A stretch of DNA of 64,000 nt from Yponomeuta sedellus (lineage: Eukaryota; Arthropoda; Insecta; Lepidoptera; Yponomeutidae). The notes beneath the pieces are model-generated. The model did not search any database. It saw only the letters and a list, made by a program, of their open reading frames with translations, and was not told the origin of the DNA. The stretch spans positions 1,473,535 to 1,537,534 of the forward strand of contig OW203726.1 of the NCBI GenBank assembly GCA_934045075.1, given 5' to 3'. Position 1 is the first letter of the stretch, and every line of letters begins with the position of its first letter. Positions 8,966-63,725 of the stretch are shown piece after piece. Both the position numbers and the translations under genes were made by a program.

Positions 8966-9515
8966 ATAGGGTGGTGGGCAGCAGGGCCCCCTGCACTACA
9001 ATTCCATCGAACTGCGATCCCCAACCCGTATGCCCAGTGTGGGGATTATGGGCATTACCCCCTATGATAGCACAACGTGGCGCTCTTTAGGGGAGGGCTA
9101 TGTCCAGCAGTGGACTAGAATAGCCTGACGACGACGATAGATATAGATTTATTCGTTTATTTGCCAATTCCACCGAACTGCGATCCCCAACTCGTATGCC
9201 CAGTGTGGGGATTATGGGCATTACCCCCTATGATAGCACAACGTGGCGCTCTTTAGGGGAGGGCTATGTCCAGCAGTGGACTAGAATAGCCTGACGACGA
9301 CGATAGATATAGATTTATTCGTTTATTTGCCAATTCCACCGAACTGCGATCCCCAACCCGCATGCCCAGCGTGGGAATTATGGGCATTACCCCCTATGAT
9401 AGCACTACAGCACAACGAGGCGCTCTTTAGGGGAGGGCTATGTCCAGCATAGCCCTCCGTGTGGACTAGAATAGCCTGACGACGACGATAGATATAGATT
9501 TATTCGTTTATATGC
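8965..9515 (+). repeat. Triplicated LINE/SINE tail
   Basis: Three tandem units of about 166 bp (starting near 9001, 9167 and 9333). Each carries AACTGCGATCCCCAAC, ATTATGGGCATTACCCCCTA, GGGGAGGGCTATGTCCAGCA and GACGACGACGATAGATATAG. Single copies of the same tail occur at about 18690-18865 and 33180-33430, and a fragment at 32120-32200. The tandem state is specific to this site. Confidence 0.75.
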
Positions 9516-9900
9516 CTTTTAGTATATTCAGGGTTACAAATGGGTTACAAAAAAAAAACCTAAAAAAAACTAGAAATATAAGAAGGATTCCGAGATTCCT
9601 TGAGTTAGTGGCCTACTGAATTCAACCCGTAATTAGTAAGTACCCTGGTCCTGTTCTTTGCGTTCGCTTTATTTGTGAAAGCACGGTGGTTAAAACTTCC
9701 ACTTGGCTGTTTATTTTTTACATTAACCATGTCAATGAGGCGTCAGAATATATTAAAAAGTAATCAGTCATATCTGCGTTATTGAGTTGCCCGCGAGGCA
9801 TAAATAACGTTCAGAAATTCCGATAGCAACAGGTGACAAGAAAGACGTATCGCCGTTGTTACGTTGGGAAGTCTTCTTTTTTTCGCTTAAATACCAAAAT
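9516..9900. other. Unannotated AT-rich stretch
   Basis: No recognised gene or repeat. It holds short A runs (ACAAAAAAAAAACC at about 9548). Confidence 0.4.
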
Positions 9901-38330: not shown

Positions 38331-38348
38331 CACTCTCTTTATTAGGTA

Positions 38349-38942
38349 TTACCACCGTCTACTTGGGATCCTTATTTGTATTCTTCGCAGCCGTCTACTT
38401 GGGGGCCTTATTAGTAGTCTTCATCGCCCTCTACTCAGGATACTAATAAGTAGTTGTCACTCGGAATCCTTATTAAGTCATTTGGGATCGTTATTAATAG
38501 GTGTTACTGCAGTCTTCTTAAGATCCTTAATAGGAGTCGCTACTGCCGTTTACTTGGGATCCTTGGGTGCCTTATTAGCAGTCAACGCCCTCTACTCGGG
38601 ATCCTTTTAAGTAGTCGTCACTCGGTATCCTTATGAGTATCTTTGGCACCGTCTACTTGCGTGCCTTATTAGTAGCCGTTACTGCCGTCAACTTGGGATC
38701 CTTATTAAAAGTATTCACCGTTCTCTGCTTGGGATCCTTATTTGAAGTTGTCATTGCTCTCTACCCGAGATCGTTATGCGTAATCGTCATCGCCCTCTAC
38801 TCGGGATCCTTATAAGAAGTCGTCATTCAGGATCCCTATAAGTACTCATCAGCCGGGATCCTTATTGTATAGTAGTCATCACAGCCGTCACTTGGGATCC
38901 CGATTAGTAGACGTCATCCTTGTTAACAGTCGCTACGGCCAC
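38349..38942 (-). repeat. Array E: minisatellite continuing from the last ABCB7 exon
   Basis: About 16-18 imperfect units of 30-45 bp, on the gene strand like AATAAGGATCCCAAGTAGAC followed by GGCGATGACGACTACT. The first units lie inside the coding sequence (from AATAGTGATCCCAGCGTGGC at about 38990) and include the stop codon. The array occupies the expected 3' UTR. Confidence 0.85.
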
Positions 38943-39176
38943 CTACTTGGGCTCCTTATTACCAGTCGCCACGCTGGGATCACTATTCTGCTTGTCCCAA
39001 AGCCGCGAGTACAGTGAGCTGGTGTTTTTGAGCAGCTGGTTGTGGCTGCCTCTCTCGGAGACGGCTCCGTTCTCCAGGACGAGGATCTCGTCAGCATCAG
39101 CGACGGTGGAGAGGCGGTGCGCGATGCAAATGGAGGTGCGGCCCACTGTCGCCGCTTTCAGGGCCTGGAGGATTGC
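38943..39176 (-). CDS. ABCB7: ABCB7 last exon: H-loop, C-terminus and stop
   Basis: 78 codons including TAG. It begins AILQALKAATVGRTSICIAH, with the H-loop His in IAHRLSTVADADEI, and ends YSRLWDKQNSDPSVATGNKE, PK and stop. Acceptor CGTCCCCAG. The last 15 or so codons (from NSDP) belong to the repeat array that continues downstream, so the tail is probably not ancestral. The Cys-containing end of vertebrate ABCB7 is absent. Confidence 0.93.
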   Translation of the reverse strand, partial: AILQALKAATVGRTSICIAHRLSTVADADEILVLENGAVSERGSHNQLLKNTSSLYSRLWDKQNSDPSVATGNKEPK

Positions 39177-39429
39177 CTGGGGACGATTAGGGGTTTATGT
39201 AGGGCTGGCGATTTAAGCTGAGTAACTGTTTGCCAGTTGAATGAGCGAGAGACTAATAGTTATAGGTACTGATAATAATAGTACAAAAGAACCGAATTAC
39301 TTATTGCAACATTTAACCTAAATAAGATAAATACTAAATAGAAGTATTTTTAATTTAAACCTAGTTTTAACCTAAAGGACCTACAAGATCAACAATTTAA
39401 AACCAAATCCACACAGAACACACATTTCA

Positions 39430-39752
39430 CTTTATGTCACTTTCACTCTACACCGCTTCCGTTCTATTTAGCTTTCGCTCTATGTAGCTTTCGCTTTATG
39501 TAGCTTTCGCTCTATGTCACTCACGTTCTTTGTAGCTTTCGCTCTGTGTCGCTTACGTTCTTTGTAGCTTACGCTCTGTGTCACTTACGTTCTGTGTAGC
39601 TTTCGATCAATGTCACTTACGTTCTATGTAACTTTCGCTTCATGTGCTTACGTTCTATGTAGTTTCTTTGTCTCTCCTTACACTCACCGCTTCAGTCGGA
39701 GTCCAGACTGAAGGCGGCTTGCTCAAACACAATAACGGTCGCGCCCGCTGCT
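39430..39752 (-). repeat. Array D: duplicated exon end plus short donor-like repeats
   Basis: At 39688-39752 is a diverged copy of the 3' end of the exon at 39952-40098, with its donor (GAAGCG/GTGAGTGTAAGG; real donor GAAGCG/GTGAGTGTTAGG). It is 264 bp downstream of the real site. Further downstream, at 39430-39665, is a run of roughly 20-40-bp units that repeat CGTAAGTGAC or CGTGAGTGAC, again donor-like. Confidence 0.75.
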
Positions 39753-39951
39753 TCTTTTCGTGAAGAGTTTTAGGTCACATAGTACATAAAAACTAATTGC
39801 CAAAATACAGGACCACCTAGTTTGGCAATTAGTTGAATTGATGTACCATTAGCCTTCTAGTGATTTTGTTTACTTACTTTACACTCTCTCGGAGATTTTA
39901 GGTCACACTCTCTCCAGTGGCACTCTTCACCTGTCTCTCCCTAACACTCAC

Positions 39952-40098
39952 CGCTTCAGTGAGCGAGTCCAGACTTGACGTGGCCTCGTCAAACACTATG
40001 ACGGGCGAGTCCTTAAGTATGGCGCGCGCGATGGCTACCCGCTGTTTCTCGCCGCCCGAAAGCTTCAGCCCGCGCTCGCCCACCTGAGTCTCGTAGCC
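39952..40098 (-). CDS. ABCB7: ABCB7 exon: signature motif and Walker B
   Basis: 49 codons, phase 0 at both ends: [40 protein letters not shown] and SSLDSLTEA. Acceptor CTTCCCAG, donor GCG/GTGAGT. The ABC signature, the Walker B Asp-Glu and the D-loop are all intact. Confidence 0.95.
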
Positions 40099-40229
40099 CT
40101 GGGAAGGTTAGATAAAAACATAAGACAATGCTTTCTTATTGCAGTAAGGCACGCTTACCTCACGCTTAGCTAGCTCACGCAAGTTAGGGTAAGAAAATGA
40201 CAAATACTCATTGTACCATTTTATTAAGA

Positions 40230-40345
40230 TAAGATAAGAATATTCTTTATTGTACACCAGATCACATATTATAAAACATGTAAAGATACAAAGTACAATT
40301 GGCGGCCTTATTGCTAAAAGCAATTTCTTCCAGACAACCTTACGA
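40230..40345. repeat. Interspersed repeat (as at 17990-18110)
   Basis: AGATAAGAATATTCTTTATT to TACAATTGGCGGCCTTATTG and TTCTTCCAGACAACCTTACG. It is almost identical to the copy at 18 kb, so probably a recent insertion. Confidence 0.65.
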
Positions 40346-40824
40346 CGGAAAGTTGCTGAAGGAAATTAGATTAAATATTATTATTGTACGGGCATCCTTT
40401 TCCTTCCCCTCACACCTAATCAAATTTGCCGCCGACCGGACATAGACAATGCGCGCGACGCTAGCGCCGCGGACGAGTACTCTGGTGTAAAAAAAAACTA
40501 CTGTTTCCGAACCCCATGCCGGCTCGCGAAATAAATTAGAATGGAATGGAAATATAGTTGATCATACTGGACACTTATCCTGGACGTTCCTCGTGCCATA
40601 AAAACTGAACATTGAGTTGGCGAAGGTTGTGGGTGCACCCCAGCATCAACTTAGCGGTTTGCCGGTGAGTCCTCGCTTCCTTACCTATCCAGCTCCGTGT
40701 ACTCTCTGCTCAGGAATTGCTAGGGTTCAAGCAGCCAGACAGATTTAACTTCTGTATTCCTCCACCACAGCGGTTAACCTTTTCCAATTATTTTTATTAT
40801 TACCGTCATAAGAAAGGATGATAT

Positions 40825-41307
40825 TGTCGCGGTCCTATCCCGAACCATCTAGAATAGAGCCTTCTGGAAGCCTATCGAATAGTCGCCGCATGCTGCGTTT
40901 TAGTAAACAATAAAACGCAGCAAGCAATAGTGACTCGTATGTCCACTAGTATAAGGTTCAAATCTCTTTGACAAGGACTTTGTTCTAGAGTCGTTGTCGC
41001 GTGCACCGAGTGTAGGTACGTACTTGAATGTTCTAGAACCCTTGCCGGCGGATATAAATAGCGGTCGCCGCGGCGCGCTGTCAGTTCTGTTTGGAAGAGC
41101 GATGAGTGAACTTCGAGCGAACATACCTGCGATACGAGCGATAACCTACGACCTCAGCGATACTATTGGACTTCGATTGGACCTGCGATTAGAATCTACG
41201 TGTGGACTTCGTGTCGTGAAGACCTGCAGACCAGACCCTGCGTGAATAAATCCTAAGAAGTTGTCATTGGCGTTTTACATCCAAATCTAGAACCCTAGCC
41301 TGTAACA
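40825..41307 (+). mobile_element. Solo LTR with TATA promoter and heat-shock elements
   Basis: 483 bp with termini TGT...ACA and a 4-bp direct repeat ATAT (40821-40824, 41308-41311). It carries TATAAATA at 41053, an initiator TCAGTT 30 bp later at 41081, and AATAAA at 41245, the order expected of U3-R-U5. No internal retroelement remains. It lies in an ABCB7 intron, antisense to the gene. The 4-bp duplication suggests a Gypsy-type parent. Confidence 0.75.
41025..41039 (+). promoter_or_regulatory. Perfect trimeric heat-shock element
   Basis: TGAATGTTCTAGAAC fits nGAAn-nTTCn-nGAAn without mismatch and ends 13 bp before the TATA box of the solo LTR. A second, gapped site (AGAAT, 5-nt gap, CTTCT, GGAAG) lies at about 40851-40870. 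Confidence 0.7.
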
Positions 41308-41314
41308 ATATTAT

Positions 41315-41560
41315 GACAGGATGGGAGACCGTCCCGTGACTACCGCTAGTGATTTTTTTCCGAGCACTGCCGTGCGTGTCATGTAAAGGCAGTCGTTAAG
41401 CCATATCAGAGGCCTTATGGGCGGCTTGATAACTTCTGAAAGTAAGGCCCGCCACTGTCTTACAATCCTCCACCAACCCGGACTTGGACACCTTGGTGGA
41501 GTATGGCCTAACCTTCCTGCGATGCAGGAAGAGACCCGTGCCTCAGCAGTGAGGACACAT
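41315..41560 (+). repeat. 5S-rRNA-like SINE, head truncated
   Basis: Starts GACAGGATGGGAGACCGTCC right after the solo LTR and runs to GTGCCTCAGCAGTGAGGACA. Confidence 0.75.
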
Positions 41561-41686
41561 AAGGGGTGATATCGATCTATAGTTCAATCGGCGGTCTTCA
41601 ATGCAAAACTTAATGGGAAACATGCTTCAAACGCAGATTATTTCTTGGCGTGCGTGGCGTGACTAACGTCATCTAGTATGAAACAC

Positions 41687-42115
41687 GTACCTTGGAGCCA
41701 CGTAACTATACATTTGTGTAACTTATAGCTTATATGACGTCAGCATGGAACATATAACTTGGAAAGGTACAACGGACTGGTGTAGCTTAAAGCTTACGAG
41801 TAGATGACGTCAGTTTGGCACATATACCTTGGGCCATGTGAAAACGGACTGGTGTAGCTTATAATCTAGAGATGAGGTCAGTATGACACATTTACCTTGG
41901 GCCACATGTCATCGGACTGGTGTAGCTTATAATCTAGATACCGTCAGTATGACATATGTACCTTGAGCTACGTGAAAACGGACTGGTGTAACTTGTAATC
42001 TAGATGACGTCAGTATGACACATGTACCTTGGGCCACGTGACAACGGACTGGTGTAGCTTAGAGCCTAGATTGGAGTAGCTTATAGTCAATATGACGTCA
42101 GCCTGGAACATGTAC
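41687..42115 (-). repeat. Array A: six tandem copies of an exon end with its splice donor
   Basis: Units of 66-70 bp, one of 88, directly downstream of the exon at 42116-42244. On the gene strand each begins like the exon end (CACCAGTCCGTTGTCACGTG, GCCCAAG) and continues with the donor GTACATGTG and intron. Five of six copies keep AAG/GT. The copy nearest the exon is identical to it over 27 exonic bases. Putative donors lie at last-exon-base positions 42028, 41962, 41896, 41828 and 41691. Confidence 0.9.
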
Positions 42116-42244
42116 CTTGGGCCACGTGACAACGGACTGGTGAAGCTCGGCCATCTTGCTGGCCTGTATAACGTCTTCGTGAGGCCTCGATAGATCGCCG
42201 TAGTGGAGGTTGTGTAGTATCGTGTCATGGAATAGAACACAGTC
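42116..42244 (-). CDS. ABCB7: ABCB7 exon after the Q-loop
   Basis: 43 codons, phase 0: DCVLFHDTILHNLHYGDLSR, PHEDVIQASKMAELHQSVVT and WPK. Acceptor CTTCTTCAG, donor AAG/GTACAT. The D of the Q-loop VPQD is its first residue. It covers the helical part of the nucleotide-binding domain. Confidence 0.95.
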
Positions 42245-42389
42245 CTGAAGAAGACAAGAAAAGAGATTTTGTAAATATAATTTGTAGATTATTATAATAA
42301 TTTACAAACATTATATTAATTTACGAACATTGTAATAAATTCGTTGCATGCGTTTTTAGGAGCTCCTACTACCGAACGTTTTTCGCAGG

Positions 42390-42610
42390 GTAAAGTAAAA
42401 CCGTTGGTGTCGGCTGTCATGTAATGGCAGTCGTTAAGCCATCTCAGAGACCTTATGGGCGGCTTGATATCTTCTGATAGTAAGGAGCCACTGTCTTATA
42501 ATCCTCCACCAACCCCGACTTGGCCCCCGTGCTGGAGTATGGCTTGACCTTCCTGCGATAAAGGAAGAGACCCGTGCCCCAGCAGTGGGGACAAACCAGG
42601 GGTTGATATC
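42390..42610 (+). repeat. 5S-rRNA-like SINE, head missing
   Basis: Body only, from GTAAAACCGTTGGTGTCGGC to GTGCCCCAGCAGTGGGGACA. Confidence 0.7.
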
Positions 42611-42619
42611 TACTAACGA

Positions 42620-42750
42620 ACAAATCAAATCAAAGTATTTTAATTAAAATAAGACAGAAACTGTGACTTATTGAACGTTACAAGTTAAACTAAGTGTGTA
42701 TTTGAAAATCTACATTATTTTGGTGAAAAAAATGGACGAAAAATCCCATA
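42620..42750. repeat. Interspersed repeat tail, antisense (as at 1675-1815)
   Basis: AAATCAAAGTATTTTAATTA, then CAGAAACTGTGACTTATTGA and GTGTATTTGAAAATCTACAT. Confidence 0.45.
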
Positions 42751-42901
42751 CGTACTTAGTTAATGAATGAATTATTTAATGAATGAAAAATTCTTTATTA
42801 CACTAAAACCAATTTGTACAAAGGCGATTAATTAATTAATTAACGGGGTTTACATATTATTCGAAAAATTACTGAAAGACGTTTCACGTCAAAGAACTCA
42901 C

Positions 42902-43031
42902 CTGAGGAACTATAGCGATGGATTTTCTTAGACTGAGTAGGTCGACGTCACGAATATTCTGTCCGTTGATCAGGATCTGACCAGACTGGGGCTCGAAGAA
43001 CCGGAATAGCAATCGGACCATCGTGGATTTG
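42902..43031 (-). CDS. ABCB7: ABCB7 exon: end of Walker A to Q-loop
   Basis: 130 nt: one base completing the Gly before KST, then [40 protein letters not shown] and VPQ. Acceptor GTCTCCAG, donor CAG/GTGAGT. The intron before it splits Walker A between Gly and Lys. Confidence 0.95.
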
Positions 43032-43519
43032 CTGGAGACAAAAAGGATGGCTTAAGAGGGAAAACACACAAGGCGATACTGGAGAATAATACCAGTTTTC
43101 ATCGACTTTAAAGGCCCTCAAGTTGGAACGTTTTATAACTTTTATAATAATAAATAAACTCTGGAACGACTTTAGGTGTGGTTTTATTTGTAGAATTGTA
43201 GTAGAAAACTGGATGAAAACGGATAAACGGAGAAGCAGATAAAAAGTCAGATCTGGTCAAAGCGTAAAGTAGTAGTCAATGAAAATGAGGGAAATCGAAA
43301 AATGAGTGACAAAATTTAAATATTTGAAAATGATAGATAGAAAAACAAATAAAAATGGTGTGTTACAAATAAACCTTGTAAAAAAGGTTTGCACCGTTAC
43401 AAAGTTACTTTTGGCTTTATTTTATTTGTTTGGGGTACCAATGAGTGTGTTTGGTGTTATAACAACGTTGATCTGTCACTTACGGCATCACGAGCTATAA
43501 TATCAAACATGGTATTTAA

Positions 43520-44049
43520 ACGCTCCCGTGCCCCTAATCAACCGCTTAGAACACCCGCACTCGCCTGCTCCGAACCCCCGCTCTTACCTTCTCCGAACCC
43601 CCGTACTCACCCGTTCCAACCTATGTACTGTAACTATCTAATATTTAAAACGAAATAAACTTTTGGTTTTCTCTTTTCATCGAAAGCCTAGCCAAGCTCG
43701 TAGCGGTTTCCTTTAAAATTAACTAGACGGCTGCGCCGGCTAGCTATTATAAAGAAGTATCGTTACGATACTCACCCGCTTCGGATTCCTGCACTTGCCC
43801 GCTTCGAAACCCCGTACTCGCCCACTGCAACCCTCAGTCTCACAGAAACACCTCACTCACCCGCTGCCCGAGCCGCGGACTGTGCCGAACTTCTTGAAAA
43901 TAATTCAAACTTGACTAGACGGTTGCGTCGGCCATCTATTATAAAGAAATCGTAACAGTACTCACCCGCTCCTAACACCCGTACTCGCCGACTTAGATTC
44001 CGAACCCTTGTACTCGCCCACTTCAACCTTCAGTCTGACACAAACTCAC
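43520..44049 (-). repeat. Array C: exon-end copy and donor-rich repeats after the Walker A exon
   Basis: On the gene strand the intron repeats a block of about 189 bp. A diverged copy of the exon end with donor lies at 43894-43855 (GGCTCGGGCAGCGGGTGAGT, identical to the real junction at 44050). Between and beyond are about ten 20-bp units like GCGGGTGAGTACGGGNGTTC, each with a GTGAGT or GCGAGT donor-like core. The block also repeats TTCTTTATAATAG and CCGTCTAGT. Confidence 0.8.
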
Positions 44050-44213
44050 CCGCTGCCCGAGCCGCCCACAATGCCGATCTTCTTCCCGGCCGGTATCACG
44101 AAATTGAGGTTATTCAATATCGGCTTGCCGTTCACGTATTTGAAGCTGACGTCTCTGAACTCTATCGTTGAAGACTTCGCGTCAATCTGGAGGGGCGGCG
44201 CCTTGTCGATCTC
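44050..44213 (-). CDS. ABCB7: ABCB7 exon: start of the nucleotide-binding domain
   Basis: 54 codons plus two bases: EIDKAPPLQIDAKSSTIEFR, then DVSFKYVNGKPILNNLNFVI and PAGKKIGIVGGSGS. The A-loop Tyr is in FKYVNG and the first part of Walker A is GGSGSG. Acceptor CTTTGCAG, donor GG/GTGAGT. Confidence 0.95.
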
Positions 44214-44684
44214 CTGCAAAGTGACGTTTACATTACATCATATCACACTATAATGGTGATGATAGTCCCGACCGATTTCGGTCACCGCGACTACTTCAAC
44301 TCCCATTTTGGTGGCGTTGGTGCGCTCGCATAACCTACCTTTTTTGCGAAGGTTCTGCCACATTTCATACATGAGAGCACTCCGTCGATATAAGTATAGT
44401 CGATCGCAGCACTATTATATACTAGAGGCGAAAGGTTGTAAGTGTGTAAGTTTATTGCTTCAATATGTTATTCCCATGGAAAAATCGATAAAACGCGGGT
44501 AACATCGCGGGGCACACCCAGTCAGTTATGAAATTACCGAGTTTGCGGGGTGGGTCATAACGTAACGCGGAGTTCGATCGTGATGAAATTAAAGAGTTTG
44601 TGGAATTAATCTAATCTGAGTGGACCGCTACTTTCGACACGAAAAAAGAAGCTAACCGGGATCTGTATTCGATATCGATATCAA

Positions 44685-44745
44685 CCCTTGTTTGTCCCCA
44701 CATTTGGGGCACGGGTCTCTTCCTGCACCGTAGGAAGGTTAGGCC
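44685..44745 (-). repeat. 5S-rRNA-like SINE end fragment
   Basis: Only TATCAACCCTTGTTTGTCCC to GGGTCTCTTCCTGCACCGTA. It breaks off at the border of array B. Confidence 0.6.
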
Positions 44746-44765
44746 AGACATATGGTCTGTATGTT

Positions 44766-45587
44766 GAATAACTAATTGACATATTCATGAGCGTGAACAT
44801 GGTCTGCACAATGAGTGACTAATTGCTAACCTTGATCCGACTTTGCACGGTCATGAGTGTGAACAAGGTTTGCATAATGAGTTACTAATTGCTAAACTTG
44901 ATCCGACTCTTCACGGTTATAAGCGTGAACCTGGTTTGTATAAACACTAATTATGACCTTGATCCGACTCTGCACGGTCATGAGCGTGAACATGGTCTGT
45001 ATAAAGACTAACTGCCAACCTTGATCCGACTCTGCACGGTCATGAGCGTGAACATGGTCTGTATAAAGACTAACTGCCAACCTTGATCCGACTCTGCACG
45101 GTCATGAGCGTGAACATGGTCTGTATAAAGACTAACTGCCAACCTTGATCCGACTCTGCACCGTCATGAGCGTGAACATGGACTGTATAAAGACTAACTG
45201 CCACTAACTGCAACTGAACATGGTCTCTAATAAGACTACCTGCTAACCTTGATCCGACTCTGCACGCTCATAAGCGTGATCATGGTTTGCATAATGAGTG
45301 ACTAATTGCTAATGCATAATGAGTCTGTATAAAGACTAACTGCCACTAACTGCAACTGAACATGGTCTCCATTAAGACTACCTGCTAACCTTGATCCGAC
45401 TCTGCACGGTCATAAGCGTGATCAAGGTTTGCATAATGAGTGACTACCTGCTTACCTTGATCCGACTCTGCACGGTCATAAGCGTGATCATGGTTTGCAT
45501 AATGAGTGACTACCTGCTTACCTTGATCCGACTCTGCACGGTCATAAGCGTGATCATGGTTTGCATAATGAGTGACTACCTGCTAAC
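44766..45587 (-). repeat. Array B: about ten tandem copies of an exon end with its splice donor
   Basis: Units of 62 or 66 bp, with a few longer compound ones, directly downstream of the exon at 45588-45745. On the gene strand each carries CATGTTCACGCTCATGACCG and TGCAGAGTCGGATCAAG, the last 40 or so exonic bases, followed by the donor GTTAGCAGGTAG or GTAAGCAGGTAG. Three consecutive 62-bp units (about 44957-45142) are identical. Two copies (45456 and 45522) have AAG/GTAAGC, closer to consensus than the real AAG/GTTAGC. Confidence 0.92.
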
Positions 45588-45745
45588 CTTGATCCGACTC
45601 TGCACGGTCATGAGCGTGAACATGGTCTGCATATCGATGAGCGCCTGTCGCACCTCGCGATATACAGAGCCGAGGAAGCCCAGCGGGATGGATAGTTGAA
45701 ACAGTAGCCCGTTGACCATCACCAGGTCACCAACTGTCATGTTGC
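45588..45745 (-). CDS. ABCB7: ABCB7 exon: last transmembrane segment
   Basis: 158 nt: two bases completing Gly, then [40 protein letters not shown] and [12 protein letters not shown]. Acceptor CCATTCCAG, donor AAG/GTTAGC. It holds the final membrane helix and the coupling region that leads into the nucleotide-binding domain. It is the most diagnostic ABCB7 exon in the window. Confidence 0.96.
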
Positions 45746-53494: not shown

Positions 53495-55440
53495 CTAAAC
53501 CGACAACAAATTTAATACTTCTTTTGATAGAATAGACTTCTTCTTCTGTGGTAACCTTCTTAAACTAGAAATATAAGGATCCGAATTAAGGAGAAGTCTA
53601 TGTATCAAGTCGGTGTTTGTGACAACCCGAGACATTTTCCTCGTGTTGTCACGCCTGAAGAGTTTGATTAATTTATTGCAAGATTCGGCGGCCTCTTCCG
53701 AAAGCTCACCTATTGACAATAATGCGTGTTCAATTACTTCCGACCCATGAATGAGGACCTTATGTACAGACGATGGCAAGTTGTACCATGGATAGGTAGC
53801 AACAAGTTTACGTGCTGTTTCTAGAGAATACTCTTTAAAAGTGGCGTTATTAATTTTGTATCCCGACGAAAGACACTGCAGCAGATTATGACATCTGTCA
53901 ATAAGGATTTTATCTAATCCAGTAATTTCCGCTGAAACCGCTGAGTTAGAAAAAAACTTTCTGGCAGTGTTTCCGTCGTTAGATGTGCCACTTCCTCCAC
54001 TTCGCGGTTTGTCGACTATTAGACCAAGTTTCTGCCTAAACTGTTGCTGCACATGTTGTTTTTTTTGTGCAAGAAGAGCTTTTTCGTCTGAAGAACGTAC
54101 CTGCCATTTCTTTATGTCTAATCTATAAGAAACGTGAATTAAATATTCGAAGAATCGGATATACGAGTGAAGAGGAGATAGTCCAAATTGATAGGTACCA
54201 CTATCTGCAGTTTTGCTCAGCGATTTATCAATGTCATTCATCTCTTTTGGAGTTGAACCACAAATATAACATCTACTACAAGATGTATCGCTCAGAGCAC
54301 TGCACACTTTACCATCAACCATGGTTAATTGTAAAGAATGCTGCACTTTTATTTCATATTCACCGTGAGTGAAAGAAGTCGGTTGTAAACTATCAATTTT
54401 AGTCTTGAAATAAGCTTCTTCTTGCACAGAAAGGTCTTTGGATTCTTTGGCAAATTGGAATCGAATAGGCCTACAATACCTGGTGGAAGAAGGGCGCGGA
54501 TTTTTCCAAACTATTTGATCTGGGTCGGAGGTATTGGACTTACAAACCAATTGAAGAGGACAATATGAAGTAACAAACATACTGCCATCATCATCGATAC
54601 CAGAATCTCCAAAAATCTGTTTATATTCGCTGTGCCCCGTACTCCCATCGAAACCCCATTTTCCAATCAAAACAAATTCTTTATTAGGGTCAATATTATT
54701 CAAAACGGGTTTTTGGGATTCTAGTATCCGGCAAGCAGTATGATCTAACAATGATTGTAATTCTACTTCAGCAGATGATTCCGTGATAAACTCTTGCGAT
54801 GGATAGCACCGCTTCTTAGCTTCTAACACTTTTTGATAAGATGGTAATGCATTAGGTGATTTTGCATTAACGAAGTCTTTCACCAAAAGATACTGATGTT
54901 TAGTCAGTTTTGTCTCATTTATAAGAGACAAGACTTCGTCAGTGCTGAAATTTAAAGATGCAGCGGCGTTAGATAGACTAGAATCGTCCAACAAAGAATT
55001 TATCGCAGAACTGTCTACTTTACTTAACTCTGCAAGCCTGCGGCGTTTTGATCTCTTGCTACATTCCTCAAAGTCCTTCCTGTGCTGGTGCTGTTGGGTG
55101 CTTGTCGAAGCTTCTGCTGCTGGCCGTTGGGTGTTGTGGCTCCCTACTGTTGCACAAGTTGGCAGAACGCAAACTTCAATTTCGTTCAGCCAGTCTCCGT
55201 ACTTAGAGACCATGCGAGAATGGTTGCACGTGACTTGCTTCCAAATTGCTACCAATCTTGTACAAACTTTAGTAACTCTTTTTTCCAAGTCATCAGCAAT
55301 GTAATTCTCAACATCAGGCAGCAATTGTATTAGGTCTCGAAAAACTCGATGCCAACGCTCCAGTTCAGATTTGCTGTCTTTAATAGACAGCCAAGTATCT
55401 AGTACAAGCATTCTTTTGAAAGAACACTTAATACTAGTAC
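53495..55440 (-). CDS. Transib (RAG1-like) transposase, main exon
   Basis: With the short first exon this gives 654 residues without interruption; numbers below are for that protein. It has the RAG1/Transib core layout. First catalytic Asp271 lies in KWGFDGSTGHSEYK and Asp382 in QLTMVDGK. A zinc-binding CYIC pair lies at 397/400 and its partner H-x4-H (HKVLIH) at 566/571. Glu592 lies in LSEEAAESCNKLIKLF, aligned with RAG1 Glu962 in ESGNKLFRRF. GGSGTSNDGNTARKFF matches the MRMNGNFARKL block. The N-terminal 200 residues are not recognised. These enzymes cut and paste DNA by the hairpin route that RAG1 shares. It lies in an ABCB7 intron, same strand. A poly-A signal AATAAA is near 53275-53300. 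Transposon ends were not found. Confidence 0.88.
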
Positions 55441-55786
55441 CTAAAACAAAATAAAAATACGTTAAAAGCGGATCAAAATAGATACATGTTTCGTAGCAAG
55501 TGCTACGCGCCTGCTACGCGTTCAGGCGCGCGGCGTAGCACCTGGCTGCACCTTACAGACGCAGCATGACGCAGCTAAATTTGGAGAGGCCTAGTAGTAG
55601 ACATTGTAACCCATATTTCTATACCAAATTGAATGGTACAAGTAGGTACAAACATAAGTAAAAGCTTCAACGTAAAAAATATACAGACATAAATACATAA
55701 AAAATGCCACGTTGGCGTAGCACTCTATTTAAAAAAAAAATGTAGGAGGAAAAGGCAAAATAGTAAAGTAAATTAATAATACATAC

Positions 55787-59460: not shown

Positions 59461-60200
59461 AAACATATTATTATCATTCTTAAATACCAATAAGTACCTA
59501 CCTATTAACTTTATTTTTAACCTCACCTTAGGTTTCCTCACAATCTTTCAGTAGTGATATTACAAATAATAAAAGATAGGTAACTAACATAGAAAATCAT
59601 CGGTAAATGCGGCGGGATTACACCCGTTTTCAAGTTTTTGCGAATCAGACGGTCTCTCCCATGTAGGTACCTACGTACGTTACTTTGTGTTTTATAGCTT
59701 CTCCTGCGAGAAAAGAAATTGACAAACCATTTTGATATTGAATCATTTTTGTCTGCTGCCATCTGTTATCTTTTTGAAGAGTTATTTGTCTGCTGCCATC
59801 TATTATCGTTTCAAGTATTATTTGGTAATTTTCTTTCCTCAAAGTGGCGCTTTTCGTCGTGGAATTTTTTGGAAACCTACAATTAGCTCAAAGTACAGCG
59901 CCATCTGGATTTAAGACGGTTTTTTGATGCTACGCTCTCTTGTATGGGCTATGGTGGTCTAATACCTTCTTTGTCTATGGCACAATCAATATATTTCGGT
60001 TTCTTACGTTAAATACTATAGGAAATAGTATCGCGTCAAATTTGATACGTGTCAAATAGCGGAATAATTCAATCCAACGCTTGCGGGGCCAGTCTTTCTA
60101 CAGTATACTAAGGTTCAAAAAGAATGTTAAACCAATAAAACTTTTGGGCAATTTCCGTTCTTTTATTCGATTTTCGCTTAGAAAAAAAACGTCGCCTTAC

Positions 60201-60375
60201 CTTTGGCAATCTCGTTGGCGGCCATGATCATGATGAGACTGAGTCCGCCGCTGAATATGGCGTGCTGACCGAAGTTGAGGAGCGCCAAGCTCGAGGCAGT
60301 CTTCAGAGACGCCGTCTCGTACTTTTGGAGGCTCTCGTCGTACTTTTTCAGTTCGTAGGCTTCGTTGTTGAAGTA
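60201..60375 (-). CDS. ABCB7: ABCB7 exon: transmembrane domain
   Basis: 58 codons plus one base: YFNNEAYELKKYDESLQKYE, TASLKTASSLALLNFGQHAI and FSGGLSLIMIMAANEIAK. Acceptor ATTTTCCAG, donor AAAG/GTAAGG. YFNNE and the LNFGQ segment are characteristic of ABCB7. No repeat block derived from this exon is seen downstream. Confidence 0.95.
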
Positions 60376-62309: not shown

Positions 62310-62458
62310 CTTGACAGTCTCATAGTTGATCAGCGAATCGACGGCTTTGTTCCCAGCCTCGTTCTCAGCCCGGTTCATGTAGACCCGGAACTTGGTCCGC
62401 CACTGCGTTATGGCCAGTGTGAATACTGCGTACACTCCCACGCAGCCGAACGCGATGC
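62310..62458 (-). CDS. ABCB7: ABCB7 exon: transmembrane domain
   Basis: 149 nt: two bases completing Gly, then IAFGCVGVYAVFTLAITQWR, TKFRVYMNRAENEAGNKAVD and SLINYETVK. Acceptor CGTTCAG, donor AAG/GTGAGC. It contains one membrane helix and the conserved WRTKFR and NYETVK segments. Confidence 0.95.
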
Positions 62459-62514
62459 CTGAACGATAGGAAACGGGAAACTTTCACTAAAAAAATACTG
62501 TAGAATATATTATT

Positions 62515-63445: not shown

Positions 63446-63595
63446 TATGTATGTGTGGAACAAATAACTTTTTTAGGGTTCTGTATGCAAAGGGTGTCTA
63501 ACTGGACCCCAATACCGTGGCCTCAGGCTGCGATTTCTTACATGCGCGACGCCAAGGCTTAACGTGTTTTGCAAAGCACGGAGTCAAATATTTAC

Positions 63596-63725
63596 CAGTA
63601 AAAGCGAGACCGCCTTTCAGTCCCAATATGGTGGAGACGAGGCACAACTCGAATAGTGTTGGTACCACATTGAACACCATGGCTGACAGGACAAAGTTGA
63701 TGGCACGGGAGCCACGGTCTATCGT
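63596..63725 (-). CDS. ABCB7: ABCB7 exon: transmembrane domain, first visible
   Basis: 43 codons plus one base: TIDRGSRAINFVLSAMVFNV, VPTLFELCLVSTILGLKGGL and AFT, with a split Gly. Acceptor TTGCCCACAG, donor ACTG/GTAAAT. It matches the AIDRGTRGISFVLSALVFN region of human ABCB7. Earlier exons lie to the right of the window. Confidence 0.95.

Follow-up and report, generated by a model that had tools for sequence, protein, structure and literature searches.

Diverged copies of ABCB7 exon ends in introns of the moth Yponomeuta sedellus are consistent with recurrent local tandem duplication across exon edges

How does the end of an exon come to be repeated, in diverged form, in the intron that follows it? 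The question is raised by a stretch of 64 kb (the window) on contig OW203726.1 of the moth Yponomeuta sedellus, within a 657.5-Mb genome of 57 contigs, and by the gene for the iron-sulfur transporter ABCB7 located there on the minus strand, to which all ABCB7 coordinates below refer. The gene has 14 coding exons, placed by moth ABCB7 proteins at coordinates 38943 to 69989, with positions beyond the window counted on into loci L003–L006. After exons 9, 10, 12, 13 and 14, the exon's own 3′ end recurs in diverged copies together with the 5′ splice site or, for the last exon, the stop codon. An earlier note on this DNA had spoken of 'five consecutive exons', each directly followed by such copies. 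Five exons do have such copies, but they are five of six and not consecutive, as exon 11 has none.

The last 60 coding bases of exons 9–14 were compared with the next 1.5 kb, using the best local score and 200 dinucleotide shuffles per exon. Downstream scores were 87 for exon 9, 45 for exon 10, 59 for exon 12, 43 for exon 13 and 31 for exon 14, and the top shuffle score per exon was 24–33 (24 for exon 14). Exon 11 scored 20 and showed no downstream copies in this search, the exception that the earlier note had made for it. With the same probes, the upstream 1.5 kb gave scores of 14–16, not above chance, and copies of the 3′ ends of these exons were located only downstream of them. The repeat units start within the exon and stop beyond the junction, are 75–95% alike to the exon end, and differ from exon to exon.

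The array lies directly at the exon end for exons 9, 12 and 14, as had been claimed for all five. Exon 9 (45588–45745; donor AAG/GTTAGC) is followed by array 9 (44785–45587), ten further units of ~45 bp of exon end and ~20 bp of intron start; counting the exon, 11 units were recognised, with 8 of the 10 spacings at 61–66 bp. Array 12 (41675–42115), after exon 12 (42116–42244; donor AAG/GTACAT), holds five clear copies and one weak copy of ~66 bp (~33 bp exon end, ~33 bp intron start). Exon 14 (38943–39176, including the stop codon) gives way to array 14 (38336–38942), a run of degenerate 36- and 26-bp units, many with the stop codon; its six downstream matches have E values of 5e-5 to 0.1, and the array is plainer in tandem-repeat calling, where the 36- and 26-bp units appear. 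All three are made of imperfect head-to-tail units in the ~10–100 bp range of minisatellites.

For exons 10 and 13, by contrast with the 'directly downstream' of the earlier note, a single clear copy starts ~155 and ~211 bp past the exon, respectively, accompanied by short mini-units. Exon 10 (44050–44213; Walker A end; donor CGG/GTGAGT) has its copy of exon end and intron start at 43814–43895 (80% over 82 columns), and two short arrays of 23-bp units with donor-like cores lie within 43549–43823, at 43549–43611 and 43769–43823. The corresponding copy of exon 13 (39952–40098; donor GCG/GTGAGT) is at 39669–39741 (79% over 76 columns), followed at 39455–39666 by an array of 16/32-bp units with donor-like GTAAGTGA motifs, which was delimited partly by eye and has a putative link to exon 13. 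We read an inverted pair (73%) in the exon-13 region as an inserted palindrome. With exon 11 (42902–43031), these exons have the coordinates, splice sites and frame given in the earlier note, and when joined they form an open, ABCB7-like frame. Across the genome, exon-14 DNA is matched in full once and in part (72%) once more, on a different contig.

The arrays had been called independent, and their units do differ between exons; because no unit common to the arrays was seen, we take them to be separate events. A dispersed satellite or transposable element was rejected for array 9, the array searched genome-wide, as its sequence occurs at a single place, its own, in a search that skipped very common words; it is not the ordinary satellite that would have undone the earlier proposal. 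As a separate observation, the differences between array 9 and its exon fall mostly at third codon positions (0.143 vs 0.057 and 0.014 per site), although the copies are unreadable as protein.

Which part is the source can be judged from the protein. In exons 9, 10, 12 and 13, the part that was copied encodes residues conserved in the moth relatives compared, and these exons are therefore probably the source of their copies, as had been argued for all five. The argument fails for exon 14. Its copied tail is not conserved in relatives, most of which stop soon after LW(E/D)KQN, and exon 14 thus need not be the source of its array. In Y. sedellus, ABCB7 continues past this motif as LWDKQNSDPSVATGNKEPK, and this tail is itself similar to the units of array 14, so that the array may have shifted the ABCB7 stop codon.

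Reading on beyond the native donor of exons 9, 10, 12 and 13 leads to a stop within 18 codons, and therefore only the first donor should yield normal protein. The coding sequence is continuous over exons 9–14, with no new intron inside a former exon; ABCB7 aligns to its relatives exon by exon, and the arrays sit in introns or past the stop. Judged from the sequence, such arrays fit tolerated by-products better than they fit a function.

A related structure is present in another moth. One Manduca sexta ABCB7 protein model, isoform X2 (P0001), contains the last 47 residues of exon 9 three times, joined by VTT, whereas isoform X4 (P0005) has them once. The VTT linker looks like nine intron bases that are read through. 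The repeat belongs to a predicted protein model, and its unit would be 150 bp compared with 66 bp in Y. sedellus, which we take to mean that the same exon end was amplified independently in the two moths. Among the 120 matches listed of 7,993, P0001 is the only protein with an exon-9-type repeat, and the repeated peptides found in these 120 proteins were limited to P0001 and one glutamine run.

The remaining ABCB7 exons set a limit to the pattern. Exons 1–8 have no downstream copies of their 3′ ends (70-base probes, 2.5 kb, scores 15–25). They include the exons at 60–63 kb for which the absence of similar arrays had been noted: exon 6 (63594–63725), exon 7 (62310–62462) and exon 8 (60199–60375), the starts of exons 6 and 8 being read by eye. 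Exons 1–8 are not fully array-free, given two structures at exon 5: an array of 11-bp units extends over 637 bp (L003:928-1564) from about the ninth base of intron 5, and a diverged upstream copy of the exon's own acceptor and start is 75% alike over 115 bp. Intron 8 contains a 672-aa open frame (window 53495–55513, minus strand) with a weak RAG1 match of 22.9 bits, under the curated cut-off of 25 bits.

The earlier note had placed a recurrent, exon-end-anchored amplification in this part of the gene and had proposed a check in other genes. Anchoring and recurrence hold; restriction to this gene part does not, as similar copies are found at five loci elsewhere in the genome. The sample outside ABCB7 comprised 28 short kinase exons (the first 28 of 73 matches with an open frame of ≤200 aa, selected by hand among 137), 20 loci with ABC domains and the 30 top-ranking kinase loci, which are mostly long matches. 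We compared every match with its own flanks on the correct strand. Eight of the 28 kinase loci had flanks of no more than 305 bp, and kinase identities were read from translations. Several of the ABC and kinase loci overlap or are adjacent exons of a single gene, and the exons therefore do not all count as independent. Within 305 bp, downstream copies were present at 4/28 short kinase exons, 0/20 ABC loci and 0/30 top kinase loci (L031–L060); within 700 bp, the ABC count rises to 1/20. Upstream copies were found at 0/28, 1/20 and 0/30, respectively.

The clearest of these cases is a PKA-like exon in L062, where an 85-bp unit (73 bp of exon end and 12 bp of intron start) forms about eight donor-anchored units, counting its own, over L062:884-1670 and continues beyond the piece examined. 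This array includes a 47-bp inverted copy of its own unit (83%). At a second kinase locus (L069), the downstream intron of ~680 bp is strewn with exon-end copies; a third (L088) has two diverged copies, located after an insertion, and a fourth (L083) has old, degraded copies. The ABC copy (L026, score 65) starts 671 bp past the match and carries a stop and frame breaks. With copies after 4/28 short kinase exons and 1/20 ABC matches, an effect peculiar to ABCB7 is disfavoured. Little is explained by GC content by itself: ranked by GC, the four kinase exons with copies stand at 1, 4, 8 and 15 of 28. A kinase-motif pattern search gave 17 matches and no clusters. Two further structures lie outside these counts: in L054 (match on the minus strand), an 84-bp internal piece of a kinase exon is copied ~1.1 kb downstream at 93%, beyond the flanks counted, and L024:217-560 holds an array of 52-bp units from ~12 bp past an apparent exon donor.

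Exon starts are affected too. At an ABC exon in L009 (L009:1291-1533), intron end, acceptor and exon start form an 80-bp unit that occurs three times, counting the native one. An Ig-like exon in L006 (L006:3624-3933, minus strand), found outside the exon sample and left out of the downstream-to-upstream ratio, is preceded by ~119-bp units of intron end, acceptor and first exon bases. The diverged copy at ABCB7 exon 5 is a further acceptor-side case.

We think it somewhat more likely than not that these structures arose by local tandem duplication that has recurred across exon edges and is tolerated on the non-coding side, with ABCB7 exons 9–14 as a local hot spot. Replication slippage or template switching would duplicate short segments straddling the 3′ edge of an exon, and the extra copies would land in the intron or past the stop codon. 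As the first donor would still give normal mRNA, the copies would be nearly neutral, free to diverge and to be re-amplified into minisatellites, while selection on the exon itself would keep that end of the array unchanged. Exon starts would undergo the same process, less often in this sample, and such copies occur in several genes of this moth. The hot spot may be a mutational property of this part of ABCB7. Template switching had been named as a possible cause; the inverted copy in L062 is a sign of it, because slippage does not make inverted copies, but an inverted unit was seen in only one of the ten arrays examined. Overall, exon-edge arrays look less like a dedicated system than like a kind of mutation that recurs and mostly does no harm.

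The explanation that competes best with duplication across exon edges is ordinary background: any 200-bp piece of this repeat-rich genome would have a copy close by almost as often, and ABCB7 would be a striking tail, picked for being so. We consider this unlikely, and the figures fall on both sides. As background we used 433 probes, each 200 bp long, taken from the same 104 kb after ABCB7 exons had been set aside; they may contain unannotated exons, and the cut-off for a copy (score 32) was chosen after looking, above the top shuffle of 30. Within 305 bp, 20 of the 433 probes had a downstream and 17 an upstream copy; dispersed repeats make up 20 of these 37 matches, and their removal leaves 9 and 8. 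Against this filtered background, exons outside ABCB7 show a weak downstream excess (4/48 vs 9/433, P=0.03), with 1/48 upstream within 305 bp.

Several comparisons weigh against an excess that extends beyond ABCB7. Set against unfiltered probes, the same exons are not significantly above background, either within 305 bp (4/48 vs 20/433, P=0.28) or within 700 bp (5/48 vs 25/427, P=0.21). The dispersed-repeat filter flags L062 (one match) and L088 (two), both of which we kept, taking the matches as related kinase exons; strictly applied to exons too, it leaves 2/48 (P=0.30). Adding the 30 large kinase matches (0/30) gives 4/78 (P=0.12), and GC-rich background probes have copies at 5/52 downstream and 3/52 upstream. 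An exon excess outside ABCB7 is therefore not established, P ranging from 0.03 to 0.3 according to how repeats are filtered.

With the discovery gene included, the 62 exons do exceed background: 8/62 downstream (P=0.016 unfiltered, 0.0004 filtered), 9/62 at 700 bp unfiltered (P=0.027) and 6/62 under strict filtering (P=0.006). Five of six neighbouring exons with independent units would also be hard to obtain from a rate of 5–10%. ABCB7 exons 9–14 stand apart from other short exons (5/6 vs 4/56 at 305 bp, P=0.0001; vs 5/56 at 700 bp, P=0.0002), a comparison in which ABCB7 is the gene picked for its arrays and exon 14, scoring 31 against the cut-off of 32, is counted as positive.

Stronger claims can be built on the same observations. 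Moths might have a mutational process that acts where the 3′ edge of an exon is transcribed, repeatedly copying exon end and 5′ splice site into introns, lengthening introns with exon-derived minisatellites and occasionally re-entering the protein; the Manduca ABCB7 model would be one example, and the extended C-terminus of Y. sedellus ABCB7 perhaps another. We regard this version as doubtful. Less likely again is a process coupled to transcription or splicing, in which an R-loop or a pause at the donor, for instance, would cause the exon's 3′ edge to be copied into the intron. It would account for the ratio of downstream to upstream copies, which is 8:1 at 305 bp (P=0.039), 9:2 at 700 bp (P=0.065) and 10:2 with exon 14 counted (P=0.039). 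The numbers are small, however, and this downstream bias is suggestive only; moreover, acceptor-side arrays occur at ABCB7 exon 5, in L009 and at the Ig-like exon in L006, and a donor is lacking in exon 14.

Selection for extra 5′ splice sites, for U1 binding, as decoys or in the control of premature termination, had also been proposed, and we hold it to be very improbable. The donor 9-mer departs little from the exon's own unit in array 12 (mismatch 0.067 vs 0.152 in the exon part and 0.330 in the rest of the intron part) and in the PKA-like array (0.032 vs 0.282, with 0.020 in the intron rest), and the mini-units after exons 10 and 13 are donor-like. Array 9 shows no such preference, its donor 9-mer having a mismatch of 0.100 against 0.071 for the exon part (rank 37 of 55), so that preferential conservation of the donor motif holds for array 12 and the PKA-like array and not for every array. 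Because acceptor-side and stop-codon arrays lack a donor, and because the donor of array 9 is not better kept, selection for U1 snRNP sites is not the general cause. Tandem repeats are in general prone to assembly error, yet assembly error or a dispersed satellite is barely credible here, because the copies are diverged, array 9 occurs at one place only, and the same kind of structure is found on other contigs.

If exon edges seed arrays at a few percent of exons, local tandem duplication would lengthen introns, supply spare donor sites and occasionally create repeats in proteins. Any annotated insect genome would allow exon-edge arrays to be counted, and the ratio of donor-side to acceptor-side arrays would separate a cause coupled to transcription or splicing from plain tolerance. 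The window also contains, at 8999–9516, three 166-bp tandem units, 92% alike, that are not linked to a known exon.

How do these arrays compare with systems already described? Literature searches returned no description of exon-edge arrays by title or start of abstract, with most subscription journals outside their coverage. Human 'introns from tandem arrays' were reportedly described by Zhuo et al. in 2007. Intron gain through tandem duplication of exonic sequence that includes a proto-splice site has been described in Drosophila (PMC2891723) and in the potato RdRp gene (PMC4974935). As far as the available parts of these accounts go, the likeness lies in a local duplication of exonic sequence and splice signals that leaves one copy as exon and the rest as intron; the difference is that here the intron pre-exists, and a piece spanning an existing exon edge expands to many copies with no new intron. 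In earthworm metallothionein genes (PMC12783039), a repeat-filled first intron has units of minisatellite size, and exon-4 duplications are missing from the final transcript, but that paper, in the portion available, does not present the intron units as copied from the end of the neighbouring exon. Gene-associated minisatellites, or variable number tandem repeats (VNTRs), share tandem units of 16–85 bp in variable copies within genes; the human survey of them (PMC8096271), in its accessible part, describes their overlap with exons and introns and does not mention arrays that start from the edge of a neighbouring exon.

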